A stretch of 64,000 nt of DNA from Erythrobasidium yunnanense. Taxonomy: Eukaryota; Basidiomycota; Cystobasidiomycetes; Erythrobasidiales; Erythrobasidiaceae. The stretch's first letter is position 1. Every line of letters begins with the position of its first letter. Of the stretch, positions 18,655 through 53,080 are shown one piece after another. The stretch spans positions 496,001 through 560,000 of the forward strand of contig BCJC01000001.1 of the NCBI GenBank assembly GCA_001600175.1, in the 5' to 3' direction. The position numbers and the translations under genes were made by a program. Under the pieces are notes generated by a model, which was given only the letters and a program-made list of their open reading frames with translations, had not been told where the DNA came from and searched no databases.

Positions 18655-19370
18655 AATGAAGTAGCTTGAAGGCGGGAAATGGGTCGAGAGCAGAACCAGC
18701 TGCTTCTGTTTTTGCGACCTCGGTAGCGACTTGAAGAGCTCCAAGCGAGAGTAACGAGCTACGAGGCAGAACGAATGACAGAGGGGTATGAAAAACGACC
18801 GGATGCAGAAGAAGGCGATGCTTTGCGTAGAACGAAGGTATGAGGGACTGAAAACGACGAGAAAATGCAGCAGAAAGTAACGATTAGTAAGAGAACAAGC
18901 ACAGTAAGAAACCATGGTAGGCTGGGCTTGGGTGCGCCTCGATTCTGCTTTCGAGCCCAGACCGCTCGAGGAGCACAAAGAACCGTCAGTTGGGCGCCTC
19001 TTCGTAACAAAAGCAGGTCGAGCGCAGGTTGCGCCAAAGCATAGGAAGAAGGCATAAGCGTGTTTTCTGGACTGTGGTCTTCGCGCTTAAGCTGGTGCTG
19101 CTCAGCAGCCTCTGGATTTCGACGGCAGTCTGTCGGGCGGAGTTGTTCGAAAGCGCGAATGACACTCTTCTGTATTTGTGCTGTGTCCTATCTGTAGCAC
19201 CCTCGATTCTAGCCGTCAAACTATTGCAATCTTGCCAGATTTCGACGGGTTCGTTTGTGAACAGGTTACTTGCGCTCCGAGATTTGCAGAGTAAGTCAAA
19301 AAGGGTTTGCTGTCTGCGGTAGATATCACACTTCGCGTAGATGCAATCTAGATCTAATGCTTGATTGCAG
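18655..19370. other. 716-bp divergent intergenic region
   Basis: Lies between the starts of the secreted protein gene and the first F-box-like gene. Reading frames here look random. The right end holds a weak copy of the F-box upstream element at 19268-19280. Confidence 0.5.
19268..19280 (+). promoter_or_regulatory. weak F-box-family upstream element
   Basis: ACTTGCGCTCCGA resembles the array consensus CTTGCCTTCGCTCCA with a short internal deletion. It lies about 91-103 bp before the ATG at 19371. This is the most divergent of the set. Confidence 0.4.
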
Positions 19371-20612
19371 ATGACCACGCTTACCGACTTGCCGGTCGAG
19401 GTTCTAGAGGCCATCTTTCGCGAATTTCTGCCCAAGAAGCTTGCAAATCATGGACATCTCTGTAACTGGGAAGCTTTCAAAAGGGACTATCACAGCATCC
19501 GCGCAAGTCTGTACCGCTTGGCCATGGTCTCCAAAGCCCTATCAACAGTCGCGCTGCCTTTGCTGTACGAGCAGCTCGTACGACCTTGGGATATTAGGAA
19601 CATTGTCACAATAGCCTCTACATCCGAATCCATTCTACGCAACATGGCCTACGTCCGCTATTTAAGCATCGACATCGAACCTAAACGGACTAGGGGTTAC
19701 GTCTTTTCAATAGACACCCTTTAGATGTGTATTGCACACTGCAGTCACTTGCTTCATCTCGATATCAAGTACACTGGCGAGACCCATGAGGCTACTGCCT
19801 TCTTACAAGAACTTACAGAAAGGCCTGGCCTGCAAAAGCTGCACTGCCTACGTATACGCTCAGAGTTCAAAGATAACGAGCGCTACAACATGCGTTTTCC
19901 AGACGCTGTTCACTTCCCCAATCTGGTCGGACTTTACCTTGGCTTGATCAAGTCGGAAGCGGCGTCTATTAGACGACCAGCGCAACCTCTACCTCAATTA
20001 AAGCATCTGGTAGTTCATAGTGTCTATCTCATGGACGAGTTTTCGTCGATTATGGCACTCGCCTCGCCTGGACATCTACAAACCCTTGAGATTGACAGGA
20101 TGGAACTTTGGAACTCGCCCGCTATCCCAGTGCTAGATATCTTTGGAGTACAGCATTGGAAGCAACTCAGGAACTTGCGACTTGCAGGCGATGTAAAGCT
20201 TACATCACATACCTTCAATACACACTCCGCTCAGCTACCCACTTTGCAACAATTCCAGCTCGATCTGAATTGTTATTCTGAACCGAAAGACATCCTTCCC
20301 GCTCTTTCTTCCGCCCTCAAGTCGCTTAGGATACCTCTTAGCGATATGCCGCAGTGTTTGGACATTATATCGCTCATCCTCAACGAGCGTTGGCTGAGGG
20401 ACTCACCCAAAACCATAACACTGGATCTGGATGATATATGTAGAGACAGTACAGAAGGAGGAATCAACGTGGACGGGCAGATAATTCCGAAGGACGCCTT
20501 CATGGCTAAAATGCGAGAAGCGGTTACTGCCGCCGCGGCAAAGGGCGTTCTGCTAGGACCTGAAGATCTATTGGATGCTTTGAGCAGACACAGATATTGG
20601 AATACTGAGTAG
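19371..20612 (+). pseudogene. F-box/LRR-like family member A, interrupted by in-frame TAG
   Basis: Member of the local F-box-like family. It starts MTTLTDLPVEVLEAIFREFL, with the F-box pattern LPxEvLxxIFrxfL, then LAMVSKALSTVALPLLYEQL. Leucine-rich repeat-like strands follow, and the family C-terminus GVLLGPEDLLDALSR ends the frame. The same frame is broken once by TAG at 19722-19724. At this point copy B reads SPLLRCIAQC and this copy reads DTL-stop-MCIAHC. Everything after it remains collinear, open and family-like up to 20612. It could be a recent nonsense mutation, a sequencing error or a read-through codon. F-box proteins normally bring substrates to SCF ubiquitin ligases; no substrate can be inferred. 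Confidence 0.78.
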
Positions 20613-20754
20613 TCGGATGCAGAAAGCCAATCTCCGTGAGGATGCAAGGTATCCGCGCACGCGTTGTCTTGCTAGCGTGTGCTCCTTTGTGCAACGCATC
20701 TCTTCCTGGCTGTAATACCACAAGACTGTAGCACAAGCTGTCAAGTCAAACACG

Positions 20755-20770
20755 GTTGCTTTTGCTCCGC
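20755..20770 (+). promoter_or_regulatory. F-box-family upstream element
   Basis: GTTGCTTTTGCTCCGC, a variant of the array consensus, 106-121 bp before the ATG at 20876. Confidence 0.55.
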
Positions 20771-20875
20771 CTAACCGGTTCATCTGCACACACAATCCCG
20801 CCGGGCAACCTGAGACTCGTCTTTCTGGATATCTACAAGCTCTTAACCCTGCTCAGGCGCTCATCCGGCTTCAGA

Positions 20876-22075: not shown

Positions 22076-22505
22076 AGTGGGTCAGCAGAGACGCCCTTAG
22101 GGCTTTAGTTCCACAGCGAGACCGACGCTTGACTGAGAGCAGAGCTTGGCTTGACAGTATGTTGAAACCTTGCTACGCATCACAAACGGCGAAATCAATT
22201 TGGTACGTGCGTAGCAGTTGTGCAACTGTCTCGTTCGATTGTCGAGACCAAGGGCGGTCATCTTCCTCTAGTCGCTGCTGCATCGATCTTCCTGCTGAAG
22301 TCGCTGCAGCAAGGCTTCTGCTGTCCGTGTGTCCGCTGCTCTGGCGCAGCGCGGCCAGGCGCGTGATGCGCTGTCTTCTGGCAAAAGATGCCCCGCTTCT
22401 CCGGCCCGGAGCTCCGCTTCAACGTTGGTGCCTTGTAGCTGTCAATATAGCTTTCAACACTTCTTACTACTATACTTTCTCTTTGCTCTCTTACGGCACC
22501 ATACC
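22076..22505. other. intergenic upstream of P450-A
   Basis: 430 bp with no coding potential I can support. I do not find the F-box-family element here. The last 70 bp, pyrimidine-rich, should hold the P450-A leader. Confidence 0.5.
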
Positions 22506-24690: not shown

Positions 24691-24764
24691 GCGTATTACG
24701 AGGTAGTGACTGCAGTCTGTTGTCAAGCTTTGCGTCTTTATCAATCGGATTCTCGAGACTCAAC

Positions 24765-24779
24765 CTTGCCTTCGCTCCA
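24765..24779 (+). promoter_or_regulatory. F-box-family upstream element, exact consensus
   Basis: CTTGCCTTCGCTCCA, 109-123 bp before the ATG at 24888. The match to the array consensus is exact. Confidence 0.65.
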
Positions 24780-24887: not shown

Positions 24888-26104
24888 ATGGCCAAGCTCA
24901 CCGACCTGCCAAACGAGCTCCTCTCCCTCATCTTTCGGGATTTCCTGTCGGTATATCATGTCAGGGACACACATCTGTGGGAATGGCAAGTCGAGCTCGA
25001 TCCTGCCTCCCGTCGTGCCAATCTATATAAGCTATCCATGGTCTCGAAGCAATTGTCGACTCTGGCACTTCCCCTCCTCTATGAGCAGATGTTCCTTCTT
25101 AGGGACTTGATTCGATGCTCTCTGCTAAATCCCGAACCCCTACGGATGCCCCACCTGGCTCACGTTAGCTACGCCCAGATAGGCTGCGAATACCAAAGTC
25201 ACAAACAGTCCTTACACTATCTTCCAACCATCCCATCATACCTCAGGCATTGTGTTCAGATAAAGCATCTGCAAGTTGACCTCTGTCACCAGCATCGCTC
25301 GCAATCTAGCAGGCTGCTAGTAAGCCTCGTAGCTTTACCTCTGGCAGACCGCTTAGTCAGCCTTTCCATATATCTGGTAGTAGAGGAGGATGAGGCGCAG
25401 AACATGTTCGTGCAACTCTGTGCTTTCAGCAACTTGAAAGCCTTGAGAATCACGTTTGGCAATGAAGTACCACCTCAAAATCGGCCTTCACAGTGTCTGA
25501 AGCACTTACAAGAGTTGGACCTCAGGACGCATGCGGCACAAGAGATGCGTCCGCTTTCTCATCTCTCGCGAATCCCGTCAAGCTTCGCTCTTTATCGATG
25601 CACCTACAAAGAAGCGACAATTCCGTATCAGTCTCTCACATTTTCGCATCTCACCGATGGACCAGCCTGTCGAACCTCAATTTGTATGATGAAGAGGGCT
25701 CCGGCCGCCTACTGTTCTCGACCCATCTCGATCGCTTTCCCGTTCTGCGAAGCCTTACGCTGGACTTCGATTATGAGGTTTCGTTCAGAGGCATTCTGCC
25801 AGTCCTTCCCTCCGGACTCCAATCCATTTATGTCAATAGCTACACAATGGAGGATTTTCTTGAGGTCTTGTTCCTCATAGTAGACGGGACCTGGACCCCT
25901 GTGAGTATCAGGACCATCGAGCTCGACATCGAGAGGATGCTAGACTGGGAAATCTTCGATATCCCGGCGGGGGACATCCATCCATCAAGAGATCTAGCCA
26001 TCGAGATGGCAACCAAGGCGAAAGAGGTTGTGGATCTGAAGGGCGTGGAACTGGTACCGAGCAATATAGTACAGAGATTGGTGGATATGCATAAGGGGAG
26101 TTAG
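24888..26104 (+). pseudogene. F-box/LRR-like family member D, frameshifted
   Basis: Starts MAKLTDLPNELLSLIFRDFL, then LSMVSKQLSTLALPLLYEQMF. Leucine-rich segments continue to LKHLQELDLRTHAAQ. The reading frame then changes at about 25,530-25,560: the continuation ASAFSSLANPVKLRSLSMHL and the rest of the family body, up to VELVPSNIVQRLVDMH, lie in another frame that stays open to 26104. There are no splice sites that would repair this. Apart from that one shift the gene is complete. It is either a young pseudogene or carries a sequencing indel. Confidence 0.78.
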
Positions 26105-26169: not shown

Positions 26170-28408
26170 CTAATCTATACGCCTCATCCGCAACGGTAGT
26201 CTAGCACCTAGCTCCTCTTCTCCCGCAAGTATAGGTCTAGTAATGATATTAGAGCGTCGTAGCTGTTGTCCGGAATATCAGCTTGCGTGTGAGGCACGTA
26301 AGACAAGAACCTACGAATTTCGTTCCGCTTTCATCACGTTCCAGCACTTCGAAGCTGTCGATCAGAGTAGCCAGTATGGTCTTTGTCTCGAGCAGAGCAA
26401 AGCGGTACCCGATGCAGCCACTGGGGCCGTCAGCCAAAATCGGTCTGCTGGTGCACAAGGCAGCTCACCGAGGACCGCCGAGGAAGCTCAATATCTGCGA
26501 CCAAACCGTATATCCTTTAGCAAGCTGTAGATCCCCTAAACCATCTTGCTTCAACCATCTATCTGGATTGAACTCCTTGGCGTCTGCTCCGTAGATTTCG
26601 GTACTCTTGTGCAGAGAGTCGATGCCGATCATGATCACTTGATCTTTCTTGACGGGAATAGAAGTTATCGTAGAACCGTCTTTGCCGATAATCGGCTTAT
26701 GAAGAGGGATGATGTCGTCTTTGCTGGCTCCTCGAACGGTCATGAAGCTGAAGCGGCTACCCTTTAGCGGTGCCTGCGTAAGACTTGCTCACAGCACTTA
26801 CACAGGTGGTTCGCATCGAAGCGATTCTTTCTGTAAAGCGGGAAATCCTAGTCAGCGACATACATACTTCTTGACATGATGAAGCCGTACCACCAAAGCA
26901 TCCAGGAAAGGCAGCGCAGTAAGCCCTTCAGCTGTCAATTCGTCTCTACCCTCTCCAGCAGCCTTTGCTTTGGCTTCGCGGATCTCGTCACGCAATCTTT
27001 GCTGCATGGCCGGGTTGCGCGAAAGATGCATCAGAGTCCAAGTAAGTGTAGTAGCAGAGGTTTCGTGACCAGCCAAAATCTGCCGTGACCGTCTAGATTA
27101 GCAGGGCTCTGCTGGAAGGCATATTAAGCTCACAAAAGTCGTGATTTGACCCATGATCTCGTCATCCGTCATCTTGTCCTTCTTACTACTCGCCTGAGAG
27201 CTCGCTTTGTACATCAAGCTCATCAAGTCTTTCTTGCCCTCCAGCTCCCCATTCTCTTCCCATTCTTTCCTGATTGCAAGCATGTTCTGGCCCTCTTCCT
27301 CCATTCCCTTCAACGAAGCCTGCATTTCTCGCGCTTGTTTCGTAGGTAGCTTCGTCAAGAAGGGGAAGTACATGACCAGCGTGCCCATGATCAGCATGAA
27401 CATGGTCATCTGTCGGGCTTTCAGCATCTCCGAAAAGAGCTTCGCTAACTTGTTTTCGTTGTTGTCCAGTGCGCCAAACTTGTAGTCGAAGCCAGCTAGT
27501 CCAATAACATCCAAGGTGCAGCGGCTCAGCCAGCGAGTGATCTCGATAATTTGCCAGTCACCGCGAGCGGTCTTTTCCATTTCAGATGCCGCAGGCGTGG
27601 AAAGCTCTTGCATGACCAGATCCCGCATCTTCTTGGCTTGCTCCTGGAAGATTGGCTGATACGAGTTGACCATGGCTTGCGTGAATGGCAGGTTCATGAT
27701 GCGGCGTTGTCTGGCGTTCGAAAGATGTCAGCCCGTGTTCCGACTCGCTTGCACAACGCTTGACGCACCGCTTGTGATCTAATACATGTCCAATTCGCAG
27801 ATCAGTACACCGATCAGAAGGCTCACAAGCAAAGCTTACCATCTCCCTCCGCAAACAGAATACCTCTCCCCAATATTCGCGCAAGCTGACCGCGTAGCTG
27901 TGTAGGCTTTGGATAGTCGTAGCAGTTGGTAAGCAGGATATGATTGATAGCTTTCGGGTCGGCTAGGTAAAGCCTGTTCTCCCCAAAGAAGCCTCGATAC
28001 TGAATGACTGATGATCCATACTGTTCTGTACAAGGAAAAAGGCAGCTTCAGTACTTGAAGCAGCTTCGCGCCGTGATTGACGAGAACTTACCGATCCAAC
28101 CATCATGAATAACATCTGGCTCTGCTTCGAATACAGCAGGAAGGTTTCCACTAAGCAGAGAATAGGTGGGAGGGCCTGGAATATTGCGAATTGACGAGAT
28201 GTAGTTTGGGTCTGCAAGCATGAAATCAGGAATAAGCCGGAGCATCGCTACGAGCCGCTGTAGACCCACGGATAATCAGAGCATATATAAGATAGAGAAT
28301 AAGCAGAGTGAAACAGGCGCTGCTCCGCTTTGTCAGCTAGAGTCAGCTTGCAATCTGAGGCACGGCTCACAGCGTAGCCGTTCGCAGATTGACGTCGAAG
28401 TCGAGCAT
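26170..28408 (-). CDS. cytochrome P450 (P450-B), tandem paralogue 1
   Basis: P450 of the minus-strand tandem group. Exon 1 (from 28408) encodes MLDFDVNLRTATL. After an intron comes the membrane helix CFTLLILYLIYALII, then PNYISSIRNIPGPP and QYRGFFGENRLYLADPKA. The next exons give QPFTQ-equivalent MNLPFTQAMVNSYQPIFQEQ, SRCTLDVIGLAGFDYKFGAL, I-helix AGHETSATTLTW, ExxR as ESLR (from KESLRCEPPV), FNPDRW, and heme loop FLGGPRGCIG formed across an intron at about 26415-26462. The C-terminus is RRSNIITRPILAGEEELGAR ending at 26170. All junctions use GT/AG and stay in frame. Chemistry unknown. Confidence 0.86.
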
Positions 28409-28918
28409 CTTGCAGTTGGTATCAGATTAAGGAGCAGAAGGGTATGCACAGTCCATTAGTTGCAAGCGCAACCGGCACTCCGTAAAGACCGGTCATGAAA
28501 GAAGAAGGCGGAGACTTGCCGCCCAGAGATAGCGTAACTTATGGCTCTGATGTCGCAGCGAGTCTGGTATCAAGGATAGCGTTATGAGCAGATGATAGCG
28601 GCCTAGGTAGGGGTCTTGCTGCTCGGACTTGAAGCCAGAAGTTTTGGAGAACATAAGCCAGCTTTGAGATCTGCCCGAGTCCTGGGCGACAGCTCAGCCA
28701 GGCGGTACATATCATTGTCATGATGGCATTGCATTGTTCGTCCACTTTGTTATGTCTTTATGCGATGTAAAGAGCCAAGTTACAGCTTGTCTTTGCTCGA
28801 CGCGAAAAAGCAACAAACGATTCGCGAGACAAAACCAATTCTGGCCAATCCGGTCACGTAGCAGGTGACTACGACTTCAGAGATGCTGGCGGTGGTCAGC
28901 TTACGCGTTGCTCTCAGG
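28409..28918. other. 510-bp divergent region, P450-B / F-box G
   Basis: Between the divergent starts of P450-B and F-box-like gene G. No gene is supportable. It contains a variant F-box-family element at 28786-28800. Confidence 0.5.
28786..28800 (+). promoter_or_regulatory. F-box-family upstream element, variant
   Basis: CTTGTCTTTGCTCGA, 119-133 bp before the ATG at 28919. Confidence 0.5.
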
Positions 28919-30005
28919 ATGGCCAAGCTTACCGACCTCCCAGACGAGATCCTCACCTTCATCTTTCGCAACTTCCTCTCCTCTACTCTTACGAGTCATG
29001 GCTATCTATGCGAATGGAGAAAAGATGTCTTGGATGCCGCGACCCGCGCCAATCTATGCGCAATCGTCTTGGTCTCAAAAGCCTGGCATGCTCTCGCTAT
29101 GCCACTTCTGCTGGAACAACTGGACGAAGGAGATTTATATGCTCTATGCGATAATACAGATGGCTTGCGGGTGGCTCTCGAATACGCCTGCTACGCTTTC
29201 TACGCCAATTTCGATATATGGATCCATGACCTCGGTTCTACGCAAGACTCAGCTACAAAGCCTGTCGATCGAGGGTATGCCTCGGACCTGGATCCCTCTG
29301 CTTATGGATCGGCTTCCCTTCCTTCACAATCTGGTGGGCCTGCGACTGGATTTCGAGGGGGCCGATCGTCACAAGCTAGAACCGTCTATGAAGCAGTTGC
29401 GCCTCAGAGAGATCAGCTTAAGTAGCGTAAATGAGGACGCTGTTTATGTAATATGCATGACTATAGCGTGTCCGCAGACGCTGGAAAAAGCTACTATTCG
29501 TCTTGACGAGGAGTTGCATGAGCGTTCTCATTCCCCCATCTTTGGCACCTGGCAGTGGCCGAAGCTTGCGACTCTCACCATCCTTCTGGAACCGAAAGCC
29601 AAACTCAAGGGGCGCTATCTCGGCCTCTCCAATCTTACCGCCTTGCGTCGCCTCACCATCGAGCCCGAGGACATTGACGGCGACTCCACAGTCTCCTACG
29701 AGGATGTGTTGTCAGCAGTGCCAGCTATTGTCTGTCAGCTGGATCTCCTCGAGCTAAATGCGACAGAGTTGAAGGAAGTGCTGGAACTAGTTCGTCAAGC
29801 GGGGAGGTTACCAGGAGAATTGAAGATTTTGCATCTAGGGCTACGGTCTCTGAAAACTATGGGAATATCACTGGAAGCACTGCATATGGATCAGGAGGAG
29901 CTGCTGCTATTAGCCCAAGGTGCCGTGGCCGCTTTACAGAATCGAGGTATCGAGCTACAACCAGCAAATCTGGTAGAGATACTGGCAGGGATAACTGCAG
30001 GGTAG
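28919..30005 (+). pseudogene. F-box/LRR-like family member G, internal deletion and frameshift
   Basis: N-terminal half is family-like: MAKLTDLPDEILTFIFRNFL, then LVSKAWHALAMPLLLEQL and EYACYAFYANFDIWIH. At about 29,225-29,250 the frame changes, and the text jumps from the NFDIWIHDL strand directly to KTQLQSLSIEG. Relative to member H, roughly 45-50 residues (the CTQLKHLRL to AIIGIA part) are missing. The second frame then runs open through LRRLTIEPEDIDGD to the family C-terminus GIELQPANLVEILAGITAG, ending at 30005. This is best explained by an internal deletion that broke the frame. I see no intron that would restore it. Confidence 0.75.
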
Positions 30006-30071: not shown

Positions 30072-30086
30072 CTTGCCTTCGCTCCA
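30072..30086 (+). promoter_or_regulatory. F-box-family upstream element, exact consensus
   Basis: CTTGCCTTCGCTCCA, 107-121 bp before the ATG at 30193. Confidence 0.65.
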
Positions 30087-30192
30087 CAAAGACGCGATCA
30101 GATTGCAGTCTGGACGCCGCCTGGCTCGACAAGAGGTGACTGTGCAGCTATTACGAGTTGTGACAGTGCTCAGCTAACGCGCTCTTCTCAGC

Positions 30193-31383: not shown

Positions 31384-31735
31384 TGAAGCTGCAGCCAGTC
31401 TGCTGTGCCAGTTCTCGATACTCCTTCACTGAAGCTCGATTGAGCATGGCCAGTAGTGCACAACCTGTTCCCGAATGTATGGCAGAGTTGTAATCAGAAT
31501 TATTGCAGGCTTCAATTACAAGGTGCGCTCTTCGATAGGTTGATACTGTAAATTCTCCTGATACGTCGATCATTTCACTCTGCTTGTCTGTCAATGTTGC
31601 ACCTTGCCTTCACCCCATATAACAAACGATCGACACGCCGAAGGCAGTCTGCCTCTGGCTGTCCATTTGGAGTCTTACAAGTAACAGCGCATCTGTATGC
31701 GTCTACCTTTTGCCAGCTTACACTTCATTTTCAGG
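31384..31735. other. intergenic H / I
   Basis: 352 bp with no supportable gene. It contains an F-box-family element at 31603-31617. Confidence 0.5.
31603..31617 (+). promoter_or_regulatory. F-box-family upstream element
   Basis: CTTGCCTTCACCCCA, two mismatches from consensus, 119-133 bp before the ATG at 31736. Confidence 0.6.
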
Positions 31736-33014
31736 ATGGCCAAGCTCACCGACCTCCCGGATGAGATTCTTACTATGATATTTCGCAACTTCCTCTCCTC
31801 CACCCTCACAGACCACTCTATTCTCTGTAATTGGAAGCGTGAATGGCACATCGACGACGCCGAAAGAAAGACTCGCGCCAATCTAGCGCGGCTCGTCCTG
31901 GTATCGAAGGCTTTGCATGCACTGGCTATGCCATTGCTCTTCGAACAGCTCTTCCCCTTTCAGGACACGCACAGACTAGTCAAGACAGAAGATAGTCTGC
32001 GTTCAGTGTTGCCCTATGCTCCCTACATCCTTTATCTCGACGTCCATATCGAGGTGAAAGGCGGAGATCTGCATCCTCGCATAAAACGGCTACTTTCGCA
32101 CTGCATTCGACTTAAACACCTCAAGGCGACCCCCTGGACACCTTACAAGGACACAGGCATGGCCTATTCATCCATCTTCGGCTTCGCTCGCAAATGCAGG
32201 ATACAAAGTCTATACCTTGAAATGTCGAACGACACAGGAGGTCCTCCGGTAGTGCTTGACCAGCTCTTGATCATCGATAGCCTCGTCGGTCTACAGATCC
32301 AGCTATCAAACGCTGTTCGAGAAGACCCGTCCCAGAAGATGCGCTAGCTCAAAACCCTAAAGATTGATAGCGCTGGCGAACCTGAAGCAGACGCTCTGTG
32401 CGCTTCCCTGGCGTGCTCCAATACCTTGGTAGAGGCGATAATAGATCTAGGGCCTCAGCCTTTGTCGAGCCAATATTTCGGTCTTGAGAACTGGCACGGT
32501 CTTGAGACATTAAAGACCCGTATGCATGGAGATGTAGATTTGCATAGTCAAGTCGCCGTGTCGCGTCTGCCCTCTCTGCACACTCTCACGATCTCACCAG
32601 AGGAGAACGATGTCATTTCATACAGCGCCATATTGCCAGGATTACCAGCAAGTATCACCATGCTAGTCTTGCGATGCGTGATATTTCCAGAACTCCGTAT
32701 GATCCTTGCGAAGAGATGTACTGCCAGGTCTGCGGCACTTAGTCCTGGATCTGGAGTCAATGGCTGACGAGTACATTTACATGGACACAGCAGAGGAAGC
32801 GGAAGAGGTGCTTGAGCTAGCTGAGACGGCTCTTCGGGTCCTGAAACAAAGAGGTGTCATATATCACCCGGTAGATATCGTGCAGATATGGAAGGACAGC
32901 TTCTTGGTGCACAATGAAGGAGAGGATGCAGGGGAGGCTTCATCGGAGGATGCAGAGGAGAATTTAGCGGGAGATGCATTGGAGGATGTAGTGGAGAGTG
33001 TACCAATGCCTTGA
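31736..33014 (+). pseudogene. F-box/LRR-like family member I, stop plus frameshift
   Basis: Starts MAKLTDLPDEILTMIFRNFL, then LVSKALHALAMPLLFEQLF, and remains family-like to DPSQKMR. There, TAG at 32345-32347 replaces what is a Gln in member H (QLQQLKALEI versus stop-LKTLKID), so a CAG to TAG change is likely. The same frame then continues to LRMILAKR. At about 32,705-32,740 it shifts into another frame that carries LPGLRHLVLDLESM and the C-terminus. The C-terminal end is unusual: an acidic extension (NEGEDAGEASSEDAEENLAG) absent from the other copies. Two independent lesions make this the most decayed full-length copy. Confidence 0.78.
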
Positions 33015-33124: not shown

Positions 33125-35436
33125 CTAGCTGGAAGTCTGCTTCACCCGCCTCATGCGCAACGGCAGTCTCGCTCCAAGCTCCTCTTCTCCAACGACAACA
33201 GGCCTCACGACGATATTCGAGCGTTTGATCTGTCGTGGTCTCAAGATTCAGCCATGTAGCAAGTATGCCGGTGGCCGCACTTACAAACTTCGTCCCAGTC
33301 TCATCCCGCTCTAACACCTCGAATGCGTCTATTAGTGTAGCTAGTATAGTTTTTGTTTCCAGCAGAGCGAAGCGGTAGCCAATGCAGCCACTGATAACTG
33401 TCAGCCATGATCATGAGAAATCGCAAAACAAGCTCACCGAGGCCCTCCCAGGAACGTCAAAATCTGCGACCAGACCGTGAACCCCTTCGCAAGCTGCAAG
33501 TCTCCCGTTCCATCCTTCTTCAACCATCGATCCGGGTTGAATGCCTTTGAGTCGGGTCCGTAGATCTCGGTGTTCTTGTGCAGCGAGCCAATGGCGATCA
33601 TCACTTGTTGGCCTTTATTGACGGGGATGGAAGTGATGGTGGAGCCATCTCGGCCGGTGATAGGCTTGTGTAAGGGAATCACATCGTCTTTGGCAGCTCC
33701 TCGTATCGTCATGAAGCTGTAGGGAGACGTCAAATCAGCGACCCGGCGACAGACAGTACCTAGGTAAACTGACACAGGAGGCTCAATGCGTAGCGTCTCT
33801 TTCTGTGTTTCCAATACAGGCTCTATCAGCATAAGCTTCCTCATGGTAACACCGTGGTGGACGTACGACCAGTGCATCCATAAAAGGAAGTGCAGTGAGC
33901 TCTTCAGCCGTCAACTCGCTTCTTCCCTCTGCAGCAGCTTTCGCTTTTGCCTGATGCACCTCGTCTCGCAGTCTTTGTTGCATTTCAGTATTGCGAGAGA
34001 GATGAAGCAGGATCCATGTAAGAGTGGTCGCTGAAGTTTCATGCCCAGCTAGAATCTGCATATATCGTCAGCTACGATAGTCGAGCCCAAGTCTGGCTAA
34101 TCCACTCACGAAAGTCGTGATCTGCCCCATCAATTCCTCGTCCAGCATCTTATCCTTCTTATTCGACGCTTGCAGATTGGCTTTATACATCAAGCTCATC
34201 AGATCCGTCTTCTCTTCCAACTCTCCATTTTCTGCCCATTCCTTCCTTATCGCCAGCATCTTCTTTCCTTCATTCTCCATTCCCTCCATTGCATTCTTCA
34301 TCTCTCTAGCTGCTTTCGTAGGTATCTTAGTCAGGAAGGGGAAGTACTGAATCAGGAAACCCATGACTATCATCCAAATCTTGATGTCTCTAGGTTTCAG
34401 CATGGCTTGAAACGTCTTTGCCAGCTTGTTACCAGAGTTGTCTAATGCACCAAAGTCGTAAGCGAAGCCAGCTAGCCCGATGACGTCCAGTGTGCAGCGA
34501 CTCAGCCAGCGTGATATTTCGACAATTCGCCAATCGCCTCGAACAGTCTTCTCTGTCTCGGTCGTGATGGGCGCTTCAAGCTCTTCAATTATTCGGTCGC
34601 GCAGCTTGTTAGATTGCTCTTGGAAGATTGGCTGGTACGAGTTGACCATCGCTTGCGTGAATGGCTGATTCATGATGCGCCGTTGTCTGGGTTTGCGGCA
34701 AAGCTCAGCTTGCGAATCTGGTCATTAGTACACTTGAGTATCACCTCTTATGATCTGAACACAAACCGAACGCATATCAGCGGCGTTTCAGCGAAACTTG
34801 AAAGAAATTTGCGTACCATCTGCTTCCGCAAACAGAATACCTCTGCCGAGGATTCTCGCAAGCTGACCTCGCAACTGCTTAGGTTTCGGGTACTCGTAGC
34901 AGTTCGTAAGGAGGATATGATTGAGAGCCTTCGGATCGCTTATGTATAGTCTGTTCTGTCCCATGAAGCCTCGATACTGTAGGACCGGCCCATATTGGTC
35001 TAGAGCGACACGTCAATCAATGTGTATAAGCCTTACTGATCCGATCCAGCGCTGAGAGTATGGTGACCAGAGCGACCTACCGATCCAGCTATCGTGCAAT
35101 GCACCAGGCTCCGCTTTGAAGATCGCAGGGAGGTTTCCATTGATCAGTGAAGCAGCAGGAGGGCCAGGTATGTTGCGAATGGACGAGACATGGTTAGGAT
35201 CTGTACACGTCGATGATCCAAAATAAGCCGGAGAGCCAGGAAAAAGCCAGCAAGAACAACATACGGATGATGAGAGCGTATCCAAGGTAGAGAACGAGCA
35301 GGAGGAGTGCAGCGCTGTCCAGAATTGGCGAAGTTGCGGTCAGCTCGATGATCTTGATTCAAATCACGCTGCTCTTGCTTGAACGGCCGCAAGCTTACAG
35401 CGTCACCGTCTTGAAGTTGATGTCGACGTCGAACAT
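33125..35436 (-). CDS. cytochrome P450 (P450-C), tandem paralogue 2
   Basis: Paralogue of P450-B with the same exon plan. Exon 1 encodes MFDVDINFKTVTL, and the anchor is ALLLLVLYLGYALII. Then come PNHVSSIRNIPGPP and DQYGPVLQYRGFMGQNRLY. Next are MNQPFTQAMVNSYQPIFQEQ, SRCTLDVIGLAGFAYDFGAL, I-helix AGHETSATTLTWI, ExxR as ETLR (KETLRIEPPV), FNPDRW, and heme loop FLGGPRGCIG across the intron at about 33,393-33,437. The end is IKRSNIVVRPVVVGEEELGA with stop at 33125. The frame is open over all exons. It is followed by SYS1 185 bp upstream of its start. Confidence 0.88.
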
Positions 35437-35620: not shown

Positions 35621-36746
35621 CTAGCTGCCCACGTCGACCATCGGTATACTCTCGTAACCAGGCTTGCCTTTCGACGAGCTAGGCATAGTATTCCCAGAAT
35701 TCGTCCGGAAAGCAGAAGGCGCAGAGTTTCTTCTCTGTCTTCTAGCTGGCGTATTCTGGGTACCAGGCCCATCCTCAGGCCGTTCATCCAGCTTCCACCC
35801 TTGTCCAAGTATAAAACCCTCCTTCATTTCCCGCTTCACACAGAGCTGTTCTGCCCAGATTATCTGAAGAGCAGCTGAGCCCGCTATGACTGCCCAGAAG
35901 AAGAGCGAAGTAGGGAATGAAGAGGCGTAGTATGTCGTGAGGACGGTATGTATTAGAACGAGGGTGAGTGAGAAGTCGAGGATATGTGTAGGACGTCGTA
36001 TGAGATGGTATATGTAGAAGATGCTGGCGGTGCGAAGGCAAATTAGCCATGATCAGCGAACAGCAAGGCGCTCAAACTCACTCTAACGAGCTCGCTGCTA
36101 TCCAAGCCACTCCAAGCACCCATCCTCTAGCTGGATCTGCAGCATAGTATCTCTCCGACATCTGATGTTGCTGCTGCTGTGCCCCTTCTGGTCTCCGTAG
36201 AAAGTCCTCGACCGCTTGTTCTGCTTCTGTATCGGGCTCTGTATCCTGGCTCGCATTCTGCGCTATCTTTGCCTGCCAATCTTGCTCTCCTGCTTGTCCT
36301 CCATCTGTGACCTGCCGCGCCTGTTCACGCTGGGTGTCGTTGTTGTCCGTGCTCGGCCTATGTCTTCCCAAGCTGGGCGGCAGCCTCGTATAGTCGCCAA
36401 TCTTGTCTTCGATAGTAGCTCTTCCCACCATCTCTCGCCAGTCCATGACCATTGCGACGTTGGATGCACCACCTTCGAGGCTCAGCGACAGAGGGTTAGC
36501 GAACATGACGAGCAAGGGGGGAGTGATGAGAGCCAAGATCAGGTAGTGACATGCTTGTAAGGCGATGATCTGGATGCATATGATGTGTTAACGTTGCGCT
36601 GCGTGCTGTTTGTTTCGCTCTGACCTGTGACACGATGAGCAAGGGATCCCTGAAGTCGCAAGACAGCGTTAGATATATCCACTGCTGTCGCTTCGCAATT
36701 ATCTGCCTCACCATCCCTTCCTTCGCGAGCCATCACGCCGGACCAT
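35621..36746 (-). CDS. SYS1: SYS1 family Golgi membrane protein
   Basis: Golgi membrane protein that recruits Arl3/ARFRP1 to the trans-Golgi. The spliced N-terminus MVRRDGSRRKGWDPLLIVSQ matches the family's xVWDPLLILSQI. Then come QACHYLILALITPPLLVMFA (TM1), the luminal loop, TM2 around GWVLGVAWIAASSLE, and FYIYHLIRRPTHILDFSLT as TM3. TM4 and the end of the core are YYASSFPTSLFFWAVIAG with AEQLCVKREMKEG, equivalent to GEYLCMRTELKEI. The loop between TM1 and TM2 has a long Gln/Glu-rich insert, and the C-terminal tail of about 60 residues is longer than in human SYS1. The gene sits between P450-C and P450-D on the same strand. Confidence 0.87.
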
Positions 36747-36943: not shown

Positions 36944-39316
36944 CTAATCTCGACTCCACTCTCTGTTCACACGTCTCATCCGTACAGGAAGTCTCGCGCC
37001 AAGCTCCTCTTCTCCCACAACCACAGGCCTGGTGACCATGTTGGCGCGCCGTACCTACCCGCATCAAGCGTCCGTCAACGAGGCACACAGCGACAGAATA
37101 TCATACGATTCTAGTGTACTTACTATCCTCGTACCAGCCTCATCGCGTTCAAGGAACTCGAAAGCCTCGATCAGAGTAGCCAAAATGGTCTTGATCTCGA
37201 GAAGAGCGAAGCGGTATCCGATGCAGCCACTACCACAAAGCATCGTTTTCAGCAGTTAAGCCTAACACGAAGTACCGATACTGTGCTTACCGCGGACCGC
37301 CCAAGAACGTGAGGATATGCGACCAGACTGTAAACCCTTTCGCCAGCTGCAGATCTCCGACTCCACCTTGCTTCAACCATCTATCTGGGTCGAAGAGCTT
37401 TGCATCTTCTCCGTATATCTCTGTATTTTTATGCAACGATCCGATGCCAATCAAGACATCTTGGCCTTTCTTGACAGGAATTGAAGTCATGATCTGACCA
37501 TCTCGTCCAACGACCGGCTTGTGCAAAGGGATCACATCGTCTCTCCCTGCTGCCCGTACAGTCATTGTCCTGCACATCAACGAATGAGCCACTTCGAGAA
37601 GCGTGACAGACGCAGATCTTTTACAAGTATCGCTTACGCAGGTGGCTCAATACGTAGTGTCTCTCTCTGAATTCAAGACATAAGCGGCATCAGCAATAGC
37701 TTAAGATGGTTGTGATTGAAGGATACGCACGATAAGAGCATCCATGAATGGAAGTGTAGTCAGCTCCTCGGCGGGTATAGCACTTCTCCCTTCGGCAGTA
37801 GCTTTGGACCTGGCTCTGTGAATCTCGTCCCGCAGTCTCTGCTGCATGTCTCTATTGCGTGAGAGATGGTACAAAACCCATGTCAGAGCCGTAGCAGAGG
37901 TTTCGTGACCAGCCAGGATCTGCGAAGTGTTTAACAGAAATGCTTAAGCCAACGGCAGACAAGAACACCTGAACTCACGAAAGTCGTAATCTGACCCATC
38001 AGTTCCTCGTCCAGCATCCTGTCCTTCTTGCTCGTAGCTTGGAGATTCGCTTTGTACATCAAGCTCATCAGGTCCTTCTTATCGTCTAACTCTCCGTTTT
38101 GAGCCCATTCTCTTCTGATCGCCAACATTTCCTTGCCCTCGGCCTCGATAGTCTGTAGAGCATGTTTCATCGCTTTACCTGCCCTTGTAGGTATCTTCTG
38201 CAAGAAGGGGAGGTAGTATACCAGGGTCCCCACTACTAGCATCCATACTTTCATCTCTCGTGGTCGCAGCATAGCTTGATATACTTTAGCTAACTTGTTA
38301 TCTGCATTGTCCAGTGCACCGAAGTCGTAGTCGAAACCGGCAAACCCGATGATATCAAGAGTGCAGCGACTCAACCAGCGTGACATCTCGACAACTCGCC
38401 AGTCATCCCTGGCGGCCTTTTCGGTATCAGAAGTGATGGCCGTCTCGAGCTCTTCAATGATTCGATCTCGCATCTTGTTGGATTGCTCTTGGAAGATCGA
38501 CTGATACGAGTTGACCATGGTTTGCGTGAAAGGCTGGTTCATAATGCGGCGCTGTCTGTGCATACCCAAAAGGCGGAGGCGTCAGCTGGTACATAATCAT
38601 AGCATGAGGTCACGCAATGACTAACCTCTTGTGATCTGGCGGAATAGTGAGCCGTACTCATCAGCATCTTTGAACAGCAGCTCTTGAGACTGCAAGCTCA
38701 CCATCGCCCTCGGCGAAGAGGATGCCTTTCCCGAGGAATTTAGCGAGCTGACCACGAAATTGCTGAGGTTTCGGATAGTCGTAGCAGTTTGTCATGAGGA
38801 TGTGAGTCAAGGCTTTGGGATCGGCTATGTAGAGCGTGCTCTCCCCAAGAAGCCTCGATATTGTATAACGGATCCATACTGTTCTATGTAATATGGCGAA
38901 TCTCAGCTGGATTGTACTGGGATATGCGGCGAACCATAAGTAGGAGAATGACTGACCGATCCAAGCGTCTTGTGCAGACCCTGGCTCTGCCTTGTAGATG
39001 GTAGGGAGGCTTCCAGCTATCCAGGAGGCAGAAGGGGGGCCAGGGACATTGCTGATTAATGAGACGTAGTTTGGATCTGGGGTGCACGAATTGTAGCCCG
39101 CATTCAGTCTGGAAAGACCGCTAGTTCCTGCAAGGTATGGCTCGACATACAAAGAATGAAGACATATCCGAGGTAGAGTAAAAGCAGAGTGAAAGAAGCA
39201 CTGCCAGCCAAGAGTATCAACATCGTCAGCTGAGGCACCGGAAGCGAACCGGCCTAATCTGCCCAGGGGCGGGCTTACAGAATCGCTGCCTTGAGATCCA
39301 CATCAACTCGAAACAT
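36944..39316 (-). pseudogene. cytochrome P450 (P450-D), tandem paralogue 3, frameshifted
   Basis: Same exon plan as P450-B and C: MFRVDVDLKAAIL, PNYVSLISNVPGPP, MNQPFTQTMVNSYQSIFQEQ, SRCTLDIIGFAGFDYDFGAL, I-helix AGHETSATALTW, ExxR as ETLR (RETLRIEPPA), FDPDRW, heme FLGGPRGCIG, and C-terminus RRANMVTRPVVVGEEELGAR. In the third exon, QYRGFL lies in one frame and STLYIADPKALTHIL in another. Compared with P450-B, the run at 38,841-38,850 lacks one base (CTCCCCAAGA here, CTCCCCAAAGA in B). All else appears intact. Either a very young pseudogene or an assembly error in a short homopolymer. Confidence 0.78.
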
Positions 39317-39693: not shown

Positions 39694-40003
39694 GGCCATC
39701 CTCGAGCTTGAGATAATGTGCGTCGGCGCAATCAGCCTTTCTATAAAGGTGCAGAGTAATGATGGATCACGGTGTTGCCCTTGTTCGCGTAAGGAGATGG
39801 CGCGAAGGCAAGGTTGCTGTCGATGAAGTTGAATCATCCCTCCTACAAAGCAATGGAAGTGACGGTATCACACAAGCACGTATACTGTTTCATTCTACAC
39901 CTCATCGACGCGAAGCTAGGCAGCGCGCTGCATTGATATATTCTCAGCACACAAGGCAGACGGCTTTGCGCTGCGGAGACGCAGGCCTGTGGCTACGTCG
40001 ACA
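39694..40003 (-). repeat. truncated eleventh F-box unit: promoter and start codon only
   Basis: About 310 bp closely similar to 41240-41552, the stretch between F-box-like genes J and K. Shared landmarks include GGCCAT (start codon), CTCGAGCTTGAGA, CAGCCTTTCTA, GTGCAGAGT, CAAGGCAGACGGCTTTGCG-like text and AGGCCTGTGGCT. The start codon at 39699 opens MARLTTAC then stops, so similarity ends five codons into the coding sequence. It is the promoter side of a lost gene copy, cut off at the P450-D side. Confidence 0.72.
39798..39813 (-). promoter_or_regulatory. F-box-family upstream element in orphan promoter
   Basis: Minus-strand CCTTGCCTTCGCGCCA, about 100-115 bp from the orphan start codon at 39699. 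Confidence 0.55.
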
Positions 40004-40018
40004 CATGGCATAATGGTC

Positions 40019-41245: not shown

Positions 41246-41344
41246 ACTCGAGCTTGAGAGATTGTGTATCAGCGCAACCAGCCTTTCTACAGATGTGCAG
41301 AGTGACTATGAATTACGCTGGATGCACTTCTTTGCGCGACGCGA

Positions 41345-41358
41345 TGGGCGGAGGCAAG
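41345..41358 (-). promoter_or_regulatory. F-box-family upstream element
   Basis: Minus-strand CTTGCCTCCGCCCA, 100-113 bp before the start of J. Confidence 0.6.
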
Positions 41359-42924: not shown

Positions 42925-42940
42925 ACGGAACGAAGGCAAG
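42925..42940 (-). promoter_or_regulatory. F-box-family upstream element
   Basis: Minus-strand CTTGCCTTCGTTCCGT, 108-123 bp before the start of K. Confidence 0.6.
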
Positions 42941-44309: not shown

Positions 44310-44643
44310 CTTCAAGCGAAGAGCAATTCAGCGCGTCGATGATAGCAGTCTACGAGGAAGAAGAGTCGACTTCGGCTGCGAGTCTCATCAAGGAAAGGCC
44401 TGAGCAGAGATGGAGCGAAGGCAACCTTGTTTGTAATTGGCAGAGACATGTACATAAGGGGTCTACTGTATACACGGCGAGCTGTTGGCTATGCTGCAAC
44501 AAAGCAACAACATACAAAATGACACAATGCTATCGCGTTACTTGTCTGGAGCTTTAATTGATATAGTCACCTTCGTAATCTGCATGTCCATCTCGCCATT
44601 GGAGTGTCACCTGGAGAACTGGTCGAGGGACTTAGGGGGATGT
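44310..44643. other. intergenic MFS / F-box L
   Basis: 334 bp holding the promoter of L, with the conserved element, and the 3' flank of the MFS gene. No other gene is supportable. Confidence 0.5.
44411..44425 (-). promoter_or_regulatory. F-box-family upstream element
   Basis: Minus-strand GTTGCCTTCGCTCCA, 102-116 bp before the start of L. The flanking 120 bp align with the region upstream of the Zn2Cys6 gene. Confidence 0.65.
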
Positions 44644-48418: not shown

Positions 48419-48596
48419 TCAGAGAACCTTCAGAACCGAGCGTTATATGCTGTTCAGTAAAGCATAGCATAACTTGTCTCAAGCCGATGTAACAAGGCAA
48501 TCAGACTCTACAGCCGCGCAAGGTGTTCTACTACTTGATTCCATCTCCTGTACATGCAAATAAGCGGATGACAATGTCTATATCCCTGGATGCCGC

Positions 48597-51428
48597 CTAT
48601 TGCCAAGCTGCGAAATCCAGATTGAATCCACCGTAGAGACGAGGATCTAGAGTATCGAGACTGAAGACACCTTGTGTGATCGTCGAGGCGTTTTCAGGGA
48701 GTGAAGGTAACCACTCTGTACGCATCTCCGGTAGGGCGTCCGAAGGCACGCTTTGCGGCTCGAAACCCAGTAAGTCCAGCCAGCTCATCGTTGATTGTAT
48801 GGGTTGCGCATCCAACTCTTGTCCTTGCTTCTGCTGTTCTTGTGTGCTCGTCTCAGCCCCTGAGACAGTCTCGGCAATACGCTGCAATCAATGAAGATGT
48901 TAGCTCACAAAGCCAGGAACAATCCGGAGGCCGGGCTGTTCGCACACGTACAGTCAGAATAGAGGGATACGTCTCCAGGTTCCGTGCACTCTTTGGTAGC
49001 CTGCTAGCCTGTACCGCTTCGAGAAGTGTATCAACAATGACGCTGCTCAAGATTCAGCGATGCGTGGCTTCTTGACGTTGTTATTACGTACATGCCGGTT
49101 TTGCCTATCTATTTGGCCAGGATCAGCTGTAAAGCGAGTGAAGATGTCGAAGTCGTCCAAACCTTTGTGACACCAGGAAGTGATGAAGTCGCAGCTCTTC
49201 CGAAGATATCCCTCAATGAAGCGAAGGCGGCAATCTTGGGCGCAGTTATGGCCTCTGATATCCCGATATCTGCATCGTGGATAGCCTGTGTGCAGAGACT
49301 TACTGGAAGTAGTGACTACGCATGCTATGAGTGTCTTACGTCGATGGCTAGCACTACAATGGCGGAGAGGGCGTCTGTCATGTCGGAAGGTGCGGTCAGA
49401 TATCGAGCATTCTCGGATAGAGTAGAGGGAAGACTCACGGCGATAAAAGAAATACAGAGCAGCGCTTCGGGAGTCTAAGCTGTCTAATTCGCACATGATT
49501 GCGAGGACTTGTATCGCGTCTTGCACACAGGAGTCTGTAGAATATCGGACACGATGATCTTCGTACCCTTGTATGAGAAAGGGACGATGCAGCCGTAGCA
49601 TGCGTGCGCGAAAGCCGCTGCAACAAGTCAGACAGCCAAATTCAGCTTTACGGTTCGCTTAGCACAGAAGACACATCGACTACCACATATATATGAGCCT
49701 CGTCCAATTGAGGGCCGTATTGCTCTGCCGATCTAGCCATTTGCGGTTAGTCTTGCGATGCGCTTGATCCAGTCCTACGAGTATCGCATAGTATTCTTGG
49801 AATTTACGAGAAGCGATGTCGGGTCGGGCAGGTAAGCTATTAATCTCTCGGGTGAACTCCGCAGTCTCAGCACGATCTCGCTGAAAGCAGGCTTCGAGGC
49901 TGCAATGTCAATGTGAGGAAAGTAATCACTGTATAACTCTCGTCTGTCTTACTTGGCAGGATCTCCGAGTGGGGTCTCACCAGCTAGGGCCTTTTCAAGA
50001 TCATCATCGGCAAAGTAGCGTGGTTTGCACGTTGTCCAGTTCAGGAGAAGAACGGTTGCAAAGTGTCTCGACGTACTCGTGCTTGCGATATCGTGACATA
50101 GGAGCTACTCTGTAATCAGCTTGGTTCTGTATTACTTCACTATCAAGCACCCCTACATCATTGAACATTCTGACACCCATCTCGCGTGCCAAGAGAGTGT
50201 TGTCAGGGTAGCCATCGTTCATTACCGGCATACGGCTGGGATCGCTTCCAAGCTTATCCAATTGGAGCGCTTGGGCGACACTGACTGCCATGCAGTGCAG
50301 TTGTCGTGCGGCTAGGACTTGCCCTTGATTGTAATGAAAATACGTCGCGATGTGTAATGTCTGGCATAATCGAAAAGAAGGCTTGTTTCTCCCATCTGCA
50401 AGCTGACGGAGGTTTGCGGATGCACAGATGATCGTAAGCTGACGTCTATTTGTTCAGCGCGAATGCAAGGGGTACCTACTTCTAAAGAAAGTTCGCCGAT
50501 ACTATATAAGGACGTAGCTTGAATCTCGTAAAAAGGGTCTTGGCTGAACAACGATGCCAGAGCAAGGGTTGTCGCATACAAGGCCAGCCATATTGGGCGG
50601 ACCATAATTTCCTCAGTGGGGGAAACCATCTGCCAGAAAGCTCTCGATTCGCGAAGAAGGCTTGGCCAGTGTATGCAGCCCAGATACGAGCCAACGGACT
50701 TCTTCAGAGTTTCCAGAAGAGTCTGTGCGGCCTCTTGGCTCCGCAATATTTGTAGTAAGGCCGAAACTGCATTTTGTATCGTGCGTGCGGATAGCCAAGG
50801 CAGGGCCGGTCTTAAGTCCAGAGCTACTGGTGCTGTGTCTAGCCTGATGGAAGAACGAGTAAATTCCTCAATTGTCTGCCAGGCTGCAGCTGTTCGTCGA
50901 TCCTGCTGGTCAGTTGGTAGAGATTCGAGGTAACGGGCTGCATCTTCCAGAGGGTTCTCTTGCTCAGCATTATCCGGCAAGCTCTGAATGTCCAGAGTCG
51001 ACGATGGCTTTCTGCGTTCTGCGGGCGGCAGGGCTACAGTAGGAGCTGTTCCGCTCAAGATGCTTTGCTCTAGGAGATCGAGCCGGGTCTGAATCGCTTG
51101 TATTGTCGAGTTGAACGTTTGTTGATCGAGATACGTTGTAGCAGGCTGAGCTGTCGGGTTCTCCCACCTACACGTCTGTCCTGCATCACGTTTCAAGCAG
51201 GCCTCGCAAGGCATCTTACGGTCGCATTTGATCTTCCTAAATACGCGATGACAGCGTCATCAAGTCTGCCCGCAAGGAAGCGCCGTGAACATGACCCTAA
51301 ACAAACCTCAGCTTGCATTCCGTACATGATAGCACAATCCGGTTGCGTTGTCGAGGTCGCTTCTTCGCGGGCTGATCCAGATCCTGATCCTGATCCTGAT
51401 CATCGTAGTCCTCGATGGTGTTCTGCAT
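48597..51428 (-). CDS. Zn2Cys6 transcription factor
   Basis: Fungal zinc-cluster regulator. Exon 1 starts MQNTIEDYDDQDQDQDLDQP; the (DQ)n comes from a GATCAG repeat at about 51370-51398. A basic segment KKRPRQRNR follows. The binuclear cluster is split by an intron (about 51233-51303): CTECKLR / KIKCDRKMPCEACLKRDAGQTC, giving six Cys with normal spacing. A linker with a coiled segment (FNSTIQAIQTRLDLLEQSIL) leads to the middle homology region (SLLFDYARHYTSRRIF, VSVAQALQLDKLG, RLHRPFLIQGYEDHRVRYS). The C-terminal exon ends TMSWLDLLGFEP and LYGGFNLDFAAWQ, a hydrophobic-acidic activation-like tail. Mid-gene exon limits (49.1-50.1 kb) are only approximate. Its 5' flank resembles F-box-family promoters. 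Confidence 0.83.
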
Positions 51429-51729
51429 TTTCGAGCGTTTTCGCGAGTTTTCAATGACAGCAGTCGACTTTAGTCAAGGAGGAAGGAGCGTCGACTTTGG
51501 CTGCTATTCTCGTCAGACACCAGAAATGGCTTCAGCAGAAATGGACCGAAGGCAATTTAATTCTGACCGGAAGGGCGAATACAAAAGGGCTTAGAGATTG
51601 ATAGACTGCGTGCAATGCAGTATTGAGATACAGCGTGATCTAATACGTGCGCATCACACGTCTGGAACACAAGCCAATACCGTAATCTCCTTCACATCCA
51701 GCTTCAACCGCGTCTACCGCGTCTACCGC
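51429..51729. other. 301-bp region with F-box-type promoter upstream of the regulator
   Basis: Lies between the regulator's start and the end of F-box-like gene M. The first 150 bp align with the upstream region of L: AGCAGTC, GAGGAAG, AGTCGACTT-GGCTGC, TCTC-TCA, and the element, in the same order. Confidence 0.6.
51542..51556 (-). promoter_or_regulatory. F-box-family upstream element in front of the Zn2Cys6 gene
   Basis: Minus-strand ATTGCCTTCGGTCCA, 114-128 bp before the regulator's ATG at 51428. It is within longer homology to the promoter of L. Confidence 0.6.
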
Positions 51730-52974
51730 TCATTCTTCGGCGAAGCGCCATTTCGAGATCTGCTTCACTAGATCTCCGGGCTCCAGCTCTATACCCATCT
51801 CAAGTGCCGCCTCTATGGCCTGCGTTGCCAGACTTGTGCATTCGCTCCTCGAGACACGTTCCCCATCATATAGAGGATCCTCCAGCACCGGATCAAGCCA
51901 ATCGTCCAGAGCCTGCACCTCCAACTCGATCGAATCGAAGCGATCGCCAAGCCAATGCCCACGTATAATGCCAGCAAGGACAAGTACGAAATCTTGCACA
52001 TCTACATTGATAATCTGAAGAGCCACTCGCATATATGGATAGATGGGAGTCTCTTCTTCGAGAATAGCAGGGGAAAAAGTGCGGACAGCGAGATGTTGCA
52101 GAAGGGGAAATCGATTGGAGTGCGAAGAGAACGGGGCCGGATCGGATGCTGCAAATCTAGGCAAGCCCAAGTATACCAGAGACTCCAACGTGTGTGCTGC
52201 AAAAGCTTCGGCAACGAAGTCGTTTGATGAATTGTCGTAATCGCAGAAGTAAAATTCGAGAGTCTGGAGGTGTTTTGTTGGTGCTAGCGCCATGCATGCA
52301 GCATACTCGGCTGATTGTGTGGCATACGCCATCTGCAACTCTCTGAGATGCTCCAGGGGTCTGTTCGGACGAGCTACTGGCCAGTCGCCAAGAGCGCTAC
52401 AACATTCGATTTGTAGCCCTACCAGATTCTTGAAGTGACTGACATCACAGAATACAGTAACTCCGGGACCAGATGTGTTAGCCATCACAGTGAGGCTTTG
52501 TAGACCCTGGAATCCCGGTAATCCAGCCAGAGCAAGCAGAAATGCACTCGCAGCCGCAGCCTCGCCATGACAGAATACTTCGACCGCTTTGACTCGCACG
52601 CAATATGCCAAGTATTGTTGTGAAGATGCGGAATAGGCTTGCAGGCCACCGGGATGCCCTTTTTGTGCCGAAAGCGATATACACAGGTAGCGCGTAAAAG
52701 CCAAGAGTGGTTTGACTGAATCTGATACAGTATCGATTGACGTAATTCGTGCCAAATCCTTGCTTTCGAATAGTTGTTCATAGAGTAGAGGTAGGGCCAC
52801 CTTTGAGATGGCTTTAGATACCAGTGACAACGCGTAGAGCGTGGCTCGGATACGCCTGGCACCGTAACCCAGATACCATACACAGAGGTTTTCGTCTTCT
52901 ATAAGGTAATGAGACAGGAATTCCCGAAAGATTAGCTCCAGTATCTCGATAGGCAGGTCGGTGAGATTGGCCAT
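51730..52974 (-). CDS. F-box/LRR-like family member M, intact
   Basis: Single open exon of 414 residues. It begins MANLTDLPIEILELIFREFL, then LCVWYLGYGARRIRATLYAL and LVSKAISKVALPLLYEQLF. The body has LQSLTVMANTS, FKNLVGLQIECC, LEHLRELQMAYA, LQTLEFYFCDY and LLQHLAVRTFS. The C-terminal signature is GIELEPGDLVKQISKW. It is the outermost minus-strand copy, separated from L by the MFS, hydrolase and regulator genes. It marks the right edge of the accessory island. Confidence 0.87.
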   Translation of the reverse strand: MANLTDLPIEILELIFREFLSHYLIEDENLCVWYLGYGARRIRATLYALSLVSKAISKVALPLLYEQLFESKDLARITSIDTVSDSVKPLLAFTRYLCISLSAQKGHPGGLQAYSASSQQYLAYCVRVKAVEVFCHGEAAAASAFLLALAGLPGFQGLQSLTVMANTSGPGVTVFCDVSHFKNLVGLQIECCSALGDWPVARPNRPLEHLRELQMAYATQSAEYAACMALAPTKHLQTLEFYFCDYDNSSNDFVAEAFAAHTLESLVYLGLPRFAASDPAPFSSHSNRFPLLQHLAVRTFSPAILEEETPIYPYMRVALQIINVDVQDFVLVLAGIIRGHWLGDRFDSIELEVQALDDWLDPVLEDPLYDGERVSRSECTSLATQAIEAALEMGIELEPGDLVKQISKWRFAEE

Positions 52975-53065
52975 CTGAATTATACATCAGCTATCTGAGC
53001 TGCGTCCACATTGAACCTCTACCTGCCGTCAACAGCTAAAACTTTTCTCGACTTCTTGCAGGTTT

Positions 53066-53080
53066 TGGAGCAGAGCCAAG
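53066..53080 (-). promoter_or_regulatory. F-box-family upstream element, variant
   Basis: Minus-strand CTTGGCTCTGCTCCA, 92-106 bp before the start of M. It also lies about 95 bp upstream of the divergent CLC gene. Confidence 0.5.

Follow-up and report, generated by a model that had tools for sequence, protein, structure and literature searches.

The conserved upstream word of an F-box gene family in Erythrobasidium yunnanense is probably a variant of an initiator-type core-promoter element

A CT-rich block followed by CAAG is known from fungal transcription start sites. In the oomycete Phytophthora infestans, the INR+FPR supramotif occupies approximately 16 nt around the start site of a minority of genes, is forward-biased, lies in most cases no more than 50-100 nt from the start codon and is supported by mapped start sites (PMC3599244). 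In Cryptococcus, TATA is placed 35-40 bp before the start, compared with 28-33 bp in metazoans, and the TSS-proximal motifs TATA, AAYKCCG and GGRNG are described (PMC11302930).

The element reported here precedes a family of F-box/LRR genes in the basidiomycete Erythrobasidium yunnanense, and the oomycete INR+FPR appears to be the closest described case, alike in kind and unlike in sequence. Both are short start-site words (the start being deduced from sequence in our case) that serve a minority of genes, are biased to the forward orientation and lie near the start codon. Unlike the stramenopile supramotif (YCAYTYY followed by MWTTTNC), our element is fungal, has a gene-family variant and often comes with a 5′UTR intron; neither YCAYTYY nor MWTTTNC occurs in the consensus CAGCTTGnnTnCGCTCCA. 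The Cryptococcus motifs are likewise found near the start in a fungus, and a TATA at -40 to -35 would place the start inside our element, but none of those three motifs is this word. The generic form of the word, CTTTCCTTCGCTCCAAC, resembles the CT-rich/CAAG sites in that a pyrimidine block is followed by CA, but it is a fixed word rather than a composition-defined block, and its left half is distinct in the F-box family. Our literature search found no paper on this element, which does not imply that it is unpublished.

We analysed a window of 64 kb (C1:496001-560000) of the E. yunnanense genome (20.9 Mb, 10 contigs); a Zn2Cys6 gene and the signals of the predicted introns, both described below, are consistent with a fungal origin. 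An earlier note on this DNA had described a 15 bp element before all ten F-box family members in the window, oriented with the gene, and the shared word is confirmed to be real. The element lies upstream of all ten, with at most 3 mismatches to CTTGCCTTCGCTCCA in seven members and as weaker copies in the other three. It begins 106-133 bp before the ATG, in 10/10 it matches best on the strand of the gene, and in every member its leave-one-out matrix score exceeds that of dinucleotide shuffles (p<=0.023). The ATG of the first member is at 19371, giving an element distance of 106 bp; its copy, previously called weak and placed at 19268, occupies 19265-19279 with 5 mismatches. The copy assigned to 42925 is present, with its start corrected to 42926, and the one said to precede the orphan start at 39699 is found at 39798-39812. 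The features, in window positions, are as follows.

19265 to 19279, plus strand: element of member 19371 (weak, 10/15; shuffle p 0.013)
19291 to 19370, plus strand: predicted 5′UTR intron of member 19371 (GTAAGT..CTAAT..GCAG; ends at the ATG)
20755 to 20769, plus strand: element of member 20876 (11/15, 4 mismatches; shuffle p 0.003)
24765 to 24779, plus strand: element of member 24888 (exact)
28786 to 28800, plus strand: element of member 28919 (12/15)
30072 to 30086, plus strand: element of member 30193 (exact)
30136 to 30191, plus strand: predicted 5′UTR intron of member 30193 (GTGACT..CTAAC..TCAG)
31603 to 31617, plus strand: element of member 31736 (13/15)
39798 to 39812, minus strand: element of the orphan promoter (ATG 39699, broken coding stub; at most 3 mismatches)
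41344 to 41358, minus strand: element of member 41245 (11/15, 4 mismatches; shuffle p 0.023)
42926 to 42940, minus strand: element of member 42817 (13/15)
44411 to 44425, minus strand: element of member 44309 (14/15)
51542 to 51556, minus strand: element before the Zn2Cys6 regulator gene (ATG 51428; at most 3 mismatches; matrix p 0.033)
52975 to 53022, minus strand: predicted 5′UTR intron of member 52974 (GTAGAG..CTGAT..TCAG; ends at the ATG)
53066 to 53080, minus strand: element of member 52974 (12/15)

With up to 3 mismatches, CTTGCCTTCGCTCCA has 11 matches in the window against 2.5 expected, and at least 11 were found in 0/100 shuffles. Seven of the matches are in family promoters, one belongs to the orphan and one to the Zn2Cys6 gene. 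The remaining two (2218 and 36028) both lie inside open reading frames and are probably due to chance; by eye, the frame at 36028 looks SYS1-like. Four of the ten window members carry a stop or frameshift in the coding region of the present sequence and have kept the element (19371-20612, 24888-26104, 28919-30005 and 31736-32347).

A protein search identified 15 more family members, 14 of them on contigs C3, C6, C7, C8 and C9 and one at C1:483 kb. Expectation maximization (EM) on the sense strand of these off-window promoters, using no window sequence, recovered the word de novo as gCTTGgcTtCGCTCCA, with sites 105-149 bp before the ATG in 15/15 (only the sense strand was searched) and a log-likelihood of 170.6 for the 20 bp model, compared with 88-102 in 12 shuffled sets. 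The matrix built from the window members reached a score of at least 8 at 60-200 bp before the ATG in 12/15 off-window members, compared with 3/34 non-family starts, all three of which lie in loci fetched for having the motif. The best match was on the gene strand in 13 of the 15. No convincing copy is present in two members, C7:1677922 (shuffle p 0.78) and C1:483253 (0.42), and the copy of C9:288949 is weak (shuffle p 0.10).

When all 25 promoters were anchored on the element, mean pairwise identity was 0.596 in the 20 element columns and 0.255, the chance level, in the flanks; such anchoring biases the element columns upward and leaves the flanks unaffected, and the EM shuffled sets cover this bias. 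The most fixed blocks are TTG, and CGCTCC(A) preceded by T, and a search for a second shared upstream motif yielded only single columns that stand out (-28, -26, -116 and -49). Promoter similarity is therefore not uniform along the length, and the suggestion that the core is functionally conserved is supported by the chance-level flanks, by the de novo recovery outside the window and by the control starts. In the control for random genes, the family matrix reached a score of 8 in 0/20 unselected non-family starts, and the generic-word matrix reached p<=0.05 in 0/20 of the same starts, compared with 16/25 family promoters. This control set is small, and many of its starts are ORF-based and may miss introns. 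Eight short-chain dehydrogenase starts, four of them lacking an in-frame ATG, matched either word at 11/15 at most; the Ras family was considered as a further source of control starts and not used, having too many introns.

F-box genes are numerous in at least one mushroom (210; PMC7567395), and the Pfam F-box-like model has 140 matches in the 20.9 Mb genome, with fragments counted separately and many matches in arrays. Such arrays occur at C1:459-484 kb, C1:3273-3309 kb, C5:981-1014 kb, C8:598-606 kb and elsewhere, one of them just upstream of the window. The model matched 6/6 family proteins scanned (E 1.7e-6 to 0.021), one of the six above the cut-off, and more proteins pass once neighbouring stretches are added. 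With the family matrix, none of nine starts of more distant F-box relatives scored at least 8 (a tenth was dropped, having no ATG at the expected place), and 4/35 other F-box starts did so; 60 F-box places had been taken, 22 of which were dropped with no in-frame ATG within 24 bp of the match. EM on the 35 starts of other F-box arrays returned TTgcCTTCctGCcnAt, which is similar to the family word, at a log-likelihood of 120.2 against a maximum of 106.2 in 20 shuffled sets. A superfamily-wide element was nevertheless rejected, since the signal was lost after removal of the three-gene array at C1:3306-3309 kb, and we claim a related word for that array only. Taken together, the 0/9, the 4/35 and the dependence on one array indicate that the element belongs to this family, and not to F-box genes generally. 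The three genes of that array (L078, L087 and L101) have related words of their own, TTGCCTTTCGACCTAC, TTGCCTTTCGTCCGAT and TTGCCTTCCGGCCGAC, at about 136-139 bp.

Where the mRNA begins can be approached through the distribution of ATG triplets, as a scanned leader avoids ATGs, while untranscribed or spliced-out DNA does not. ATG triplets number 6/1477 from the element to the predicted donor or ATG. Their frequency is higher between -150 and -50 (55/2450; Fisher p 9e-7 against the leader), over the 50 bp immediately upstream of the element (19/1200; p 0.0015) and within predicted introns (18/1001; p 6e-4). Upstream ATGs are thus four- to five-fold rarer just after the element, and common before it and in the predicted 5′UTR intron. 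Because this ATG-poor stretch is bounded by the element and the predicted intron, the mRNA seems to start at the element. A 5′UTR intron model was found in 19/25 members and a good one in 17/25, leaving eight without, whereas 100 shuffled sets gave a mean of 2.6 and a maximum of 6; the models end at the ATG or a few bases before it. With the predicted introns removed, the median distance from the start of the element to the ATG is 59 nt. In copy 19371 the predicted intron donor begins 12 bp past the element's last base, so transcription of this copy should start at or upstream of the element. An A or T is present 28 bp upstream of CTTG in 23/25 promoters and at -26 in 21/25 (permutation p 0.008), and the generic promoters described below peak in AT content at this spacing too, but not significantly (p 0.3 for the generic set alone). 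With the TATA spacing of either Cryptococcus or metazoans, the start would fall in or beside the element. The ATG distribution, the intron models and the AT-rich position are thus three indirect indications that point the same way.

Words close to the family element also occur before genes of other kinds. In the whole genome, near-copies outnumber those of the reversed word: 29 versus 5 for the 15-mer with one mismatch, 379 versus 205 for the 14-mer with two mismatches, and 147 versus 56 for CTTNCCTTCGCTCCAWC with two mismatches. At 21 of 28 non-family places within one mismatch of CTTNCCTTCGCTCCAWC, the sequence reads CTTT, and of 16 such places taken, 13 had a plausible start downstream and five had one on the opposite strand. 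This sister word, CTCTTTCCTTCGCTCCAAC, precedes the ATGs of unrelated genes. Among 29 non-family copies, a usable ATG frame 17-150 bp downstream was present on the same strand in 24 and on the opposite strand in eight (background 0.49, p 2e-4), the opposite-strand count being lowered because the sequence on the other side extended for only about 117 bp in five of the copies; counting the first ATG only, the figures were 18 and 5 (background 0.29). The predicted proteins behind the generic copies are varied, and several have signal-peptide-like starts by eye.

The family and generic words differ in their left halves, CAGCTTG versus CTCTTTC, with G at position 4 in 22/25 family promoters and 4/28 generic places (Fisher p 3e-7, computed conservatively with 21/25). 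A 26-row generic set, which leans to clear leaders, suggests a longer word, CTCTTTCCTTCGCTCCAACnnnTTC. This set omits L145, L153 and L158 (no start) and L030, L032 and L034, all six of which are in the 29-copy count, and takes the weaker L024, L026 and L141. L139-L142 differ more from the 17-mer and stand outside the 29-copy count; L139, L140 and L142 have no clear leader by eye. In the generic rows (L134-L138, L143-L157), TTC often stands three bases beyond CTTTCCTTCGCTCCAAC (T in 17, T in 17 and C in 15 of the 26 rows), a hint that the start-site element is longer.

These observations are probably best explained by an initiator-type core-promoter element that serves a subset of genes and has its own variant in the F-box/LRR family. 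Its location at the deduced mRNA 5′ end, together with the similar word before unrelated genes, points to a core-promoter (initiator) function, and because the sister word precedes some unrelated genes, a role in marking where transcription of these F-box genes begins is most likely. Orientation to the gene is fixed in window, off-window and generic copies (10/10; 13/15; 24/29 compared with 8/29 opposite), the position is narrow (105-149 bp), and the word is not confined to one gene family, as would be expected of an initiator. The sequence directly shows where the word occurs, its orientation and position, its conservation between chance-level flanks, the change in ATG frequency at the element and the sister words before unrelated genes; from these we infer transcription starting at the element, splicing of the introns and the kind of protein that would read the word. 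In such a model, CAGCTTGnnTnCGCTCCA would be a directional word, some 18 bp long, that spans or abuts the site where RNA polymerase II starts. The promoter and 5′ leader would consist of a weak AT-rich position roughly 28 bp upstream, then the element and a short leader, with an intron of about 60 nt ending at or near the ATG in most members. General initiation factors would read the family element, as they would CTCTTTCCTTCGCTCCAAC before a subset of unrelated genes. What had been suspected to be an array-specific regulator site thereby becomes a likely start-site element, which is directly testable, and the family variant, set against the genome-wide background, offers a natural experiment on the part played by initiator sequence in the expression of large birth-and-death gene families.

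The earlier note had proposed a dedicated transcription factor that co-regulates the array. The window does contain a candidate, a Zn2Cys6 regulator gene with its ATG at 51428 (Zn_clus E 2e-7; locus 51236-51640, minus strand), whose upstream region, the element among it, can be aligned with that of F-box gene 44309. Duplication thus seems to have given the regulator gene a promoter of the F-box family, and our analysis points to a regulator gene carrying that promoter. A site for a dedicated factor co-regulating the F-box arrays, perhaps this very protein, would fit a family variant distinct from the generic word (CAGCTTG versus CTCTTTC; Fisher p 3e-7), a word common to dispersed members on several contigs and a regulator gene within the array that has the same promoter. 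However, we consider it unlikely, as similar words, oriented and placed alike, occur before unrelated genes, and the position coincides with the presumed mRNA start; a factor for this array only is not supported. The family variant is enriched in the family, yet its close relatives are not restricted to a regulated gene set. The usual Zn2Cys6 half-site is a CGG/CCG triplet, whereas the word is not palindromic and is without either triplet.

A role at the RNA level, in which the mRNA would open with a pyrimidine-rich tract that controls translation or stability in the manner of 5′TOP tracts, strikes us as improbable. The generic word is indeed pyrimidine-rich at the presumed mRNA start, and the word lies upstream of an ATG-poor leader. 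Nevertheless, the family conserves two G positions (CTTG and CG) for which a TOP tract has no need, and the family element, taking the mRNA end as predicted, has a conserved G within its first bases in place of a C followed by an unbroken pyrimidine run. Functionless similarity left over from recent duplication, to which plain promoter copies (the orphan and gene 41245; the Zn2Cys6 gene and gene 44309) and the coding-disrupted copies that retain the element lend some colour, is very hard to reconcile with flanks that have fully diverged over 25 promoters (0.255) while the element stands at 0.596.

The initiator-type reading leaves room for a specialised reader, as the family variant is clearly unlike the generic word. 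By way of speculation, to which we attach little credence, this dispersed and rapidly evolving F-box family could maintain CAGCTTG-CGCTCCA as a private initiator variant for a specialised factor, which would switch about two dozen copies across several contigs together at the level of the start site; the Zn2Cys6 regulator, on the same promoter, could then close a feedback loop.

The orphan start at 39699 reads as a broken coding stub behind a promoter similar to that of gene 41245. Lastly, three similar frames are interleaved with the F-box array (27098-27697, 34068-34673 and 37931-38563, the last on the minus strand); the first is a cytochrome P450 by Pfam, and the other two are assigned by their resemblance to it.
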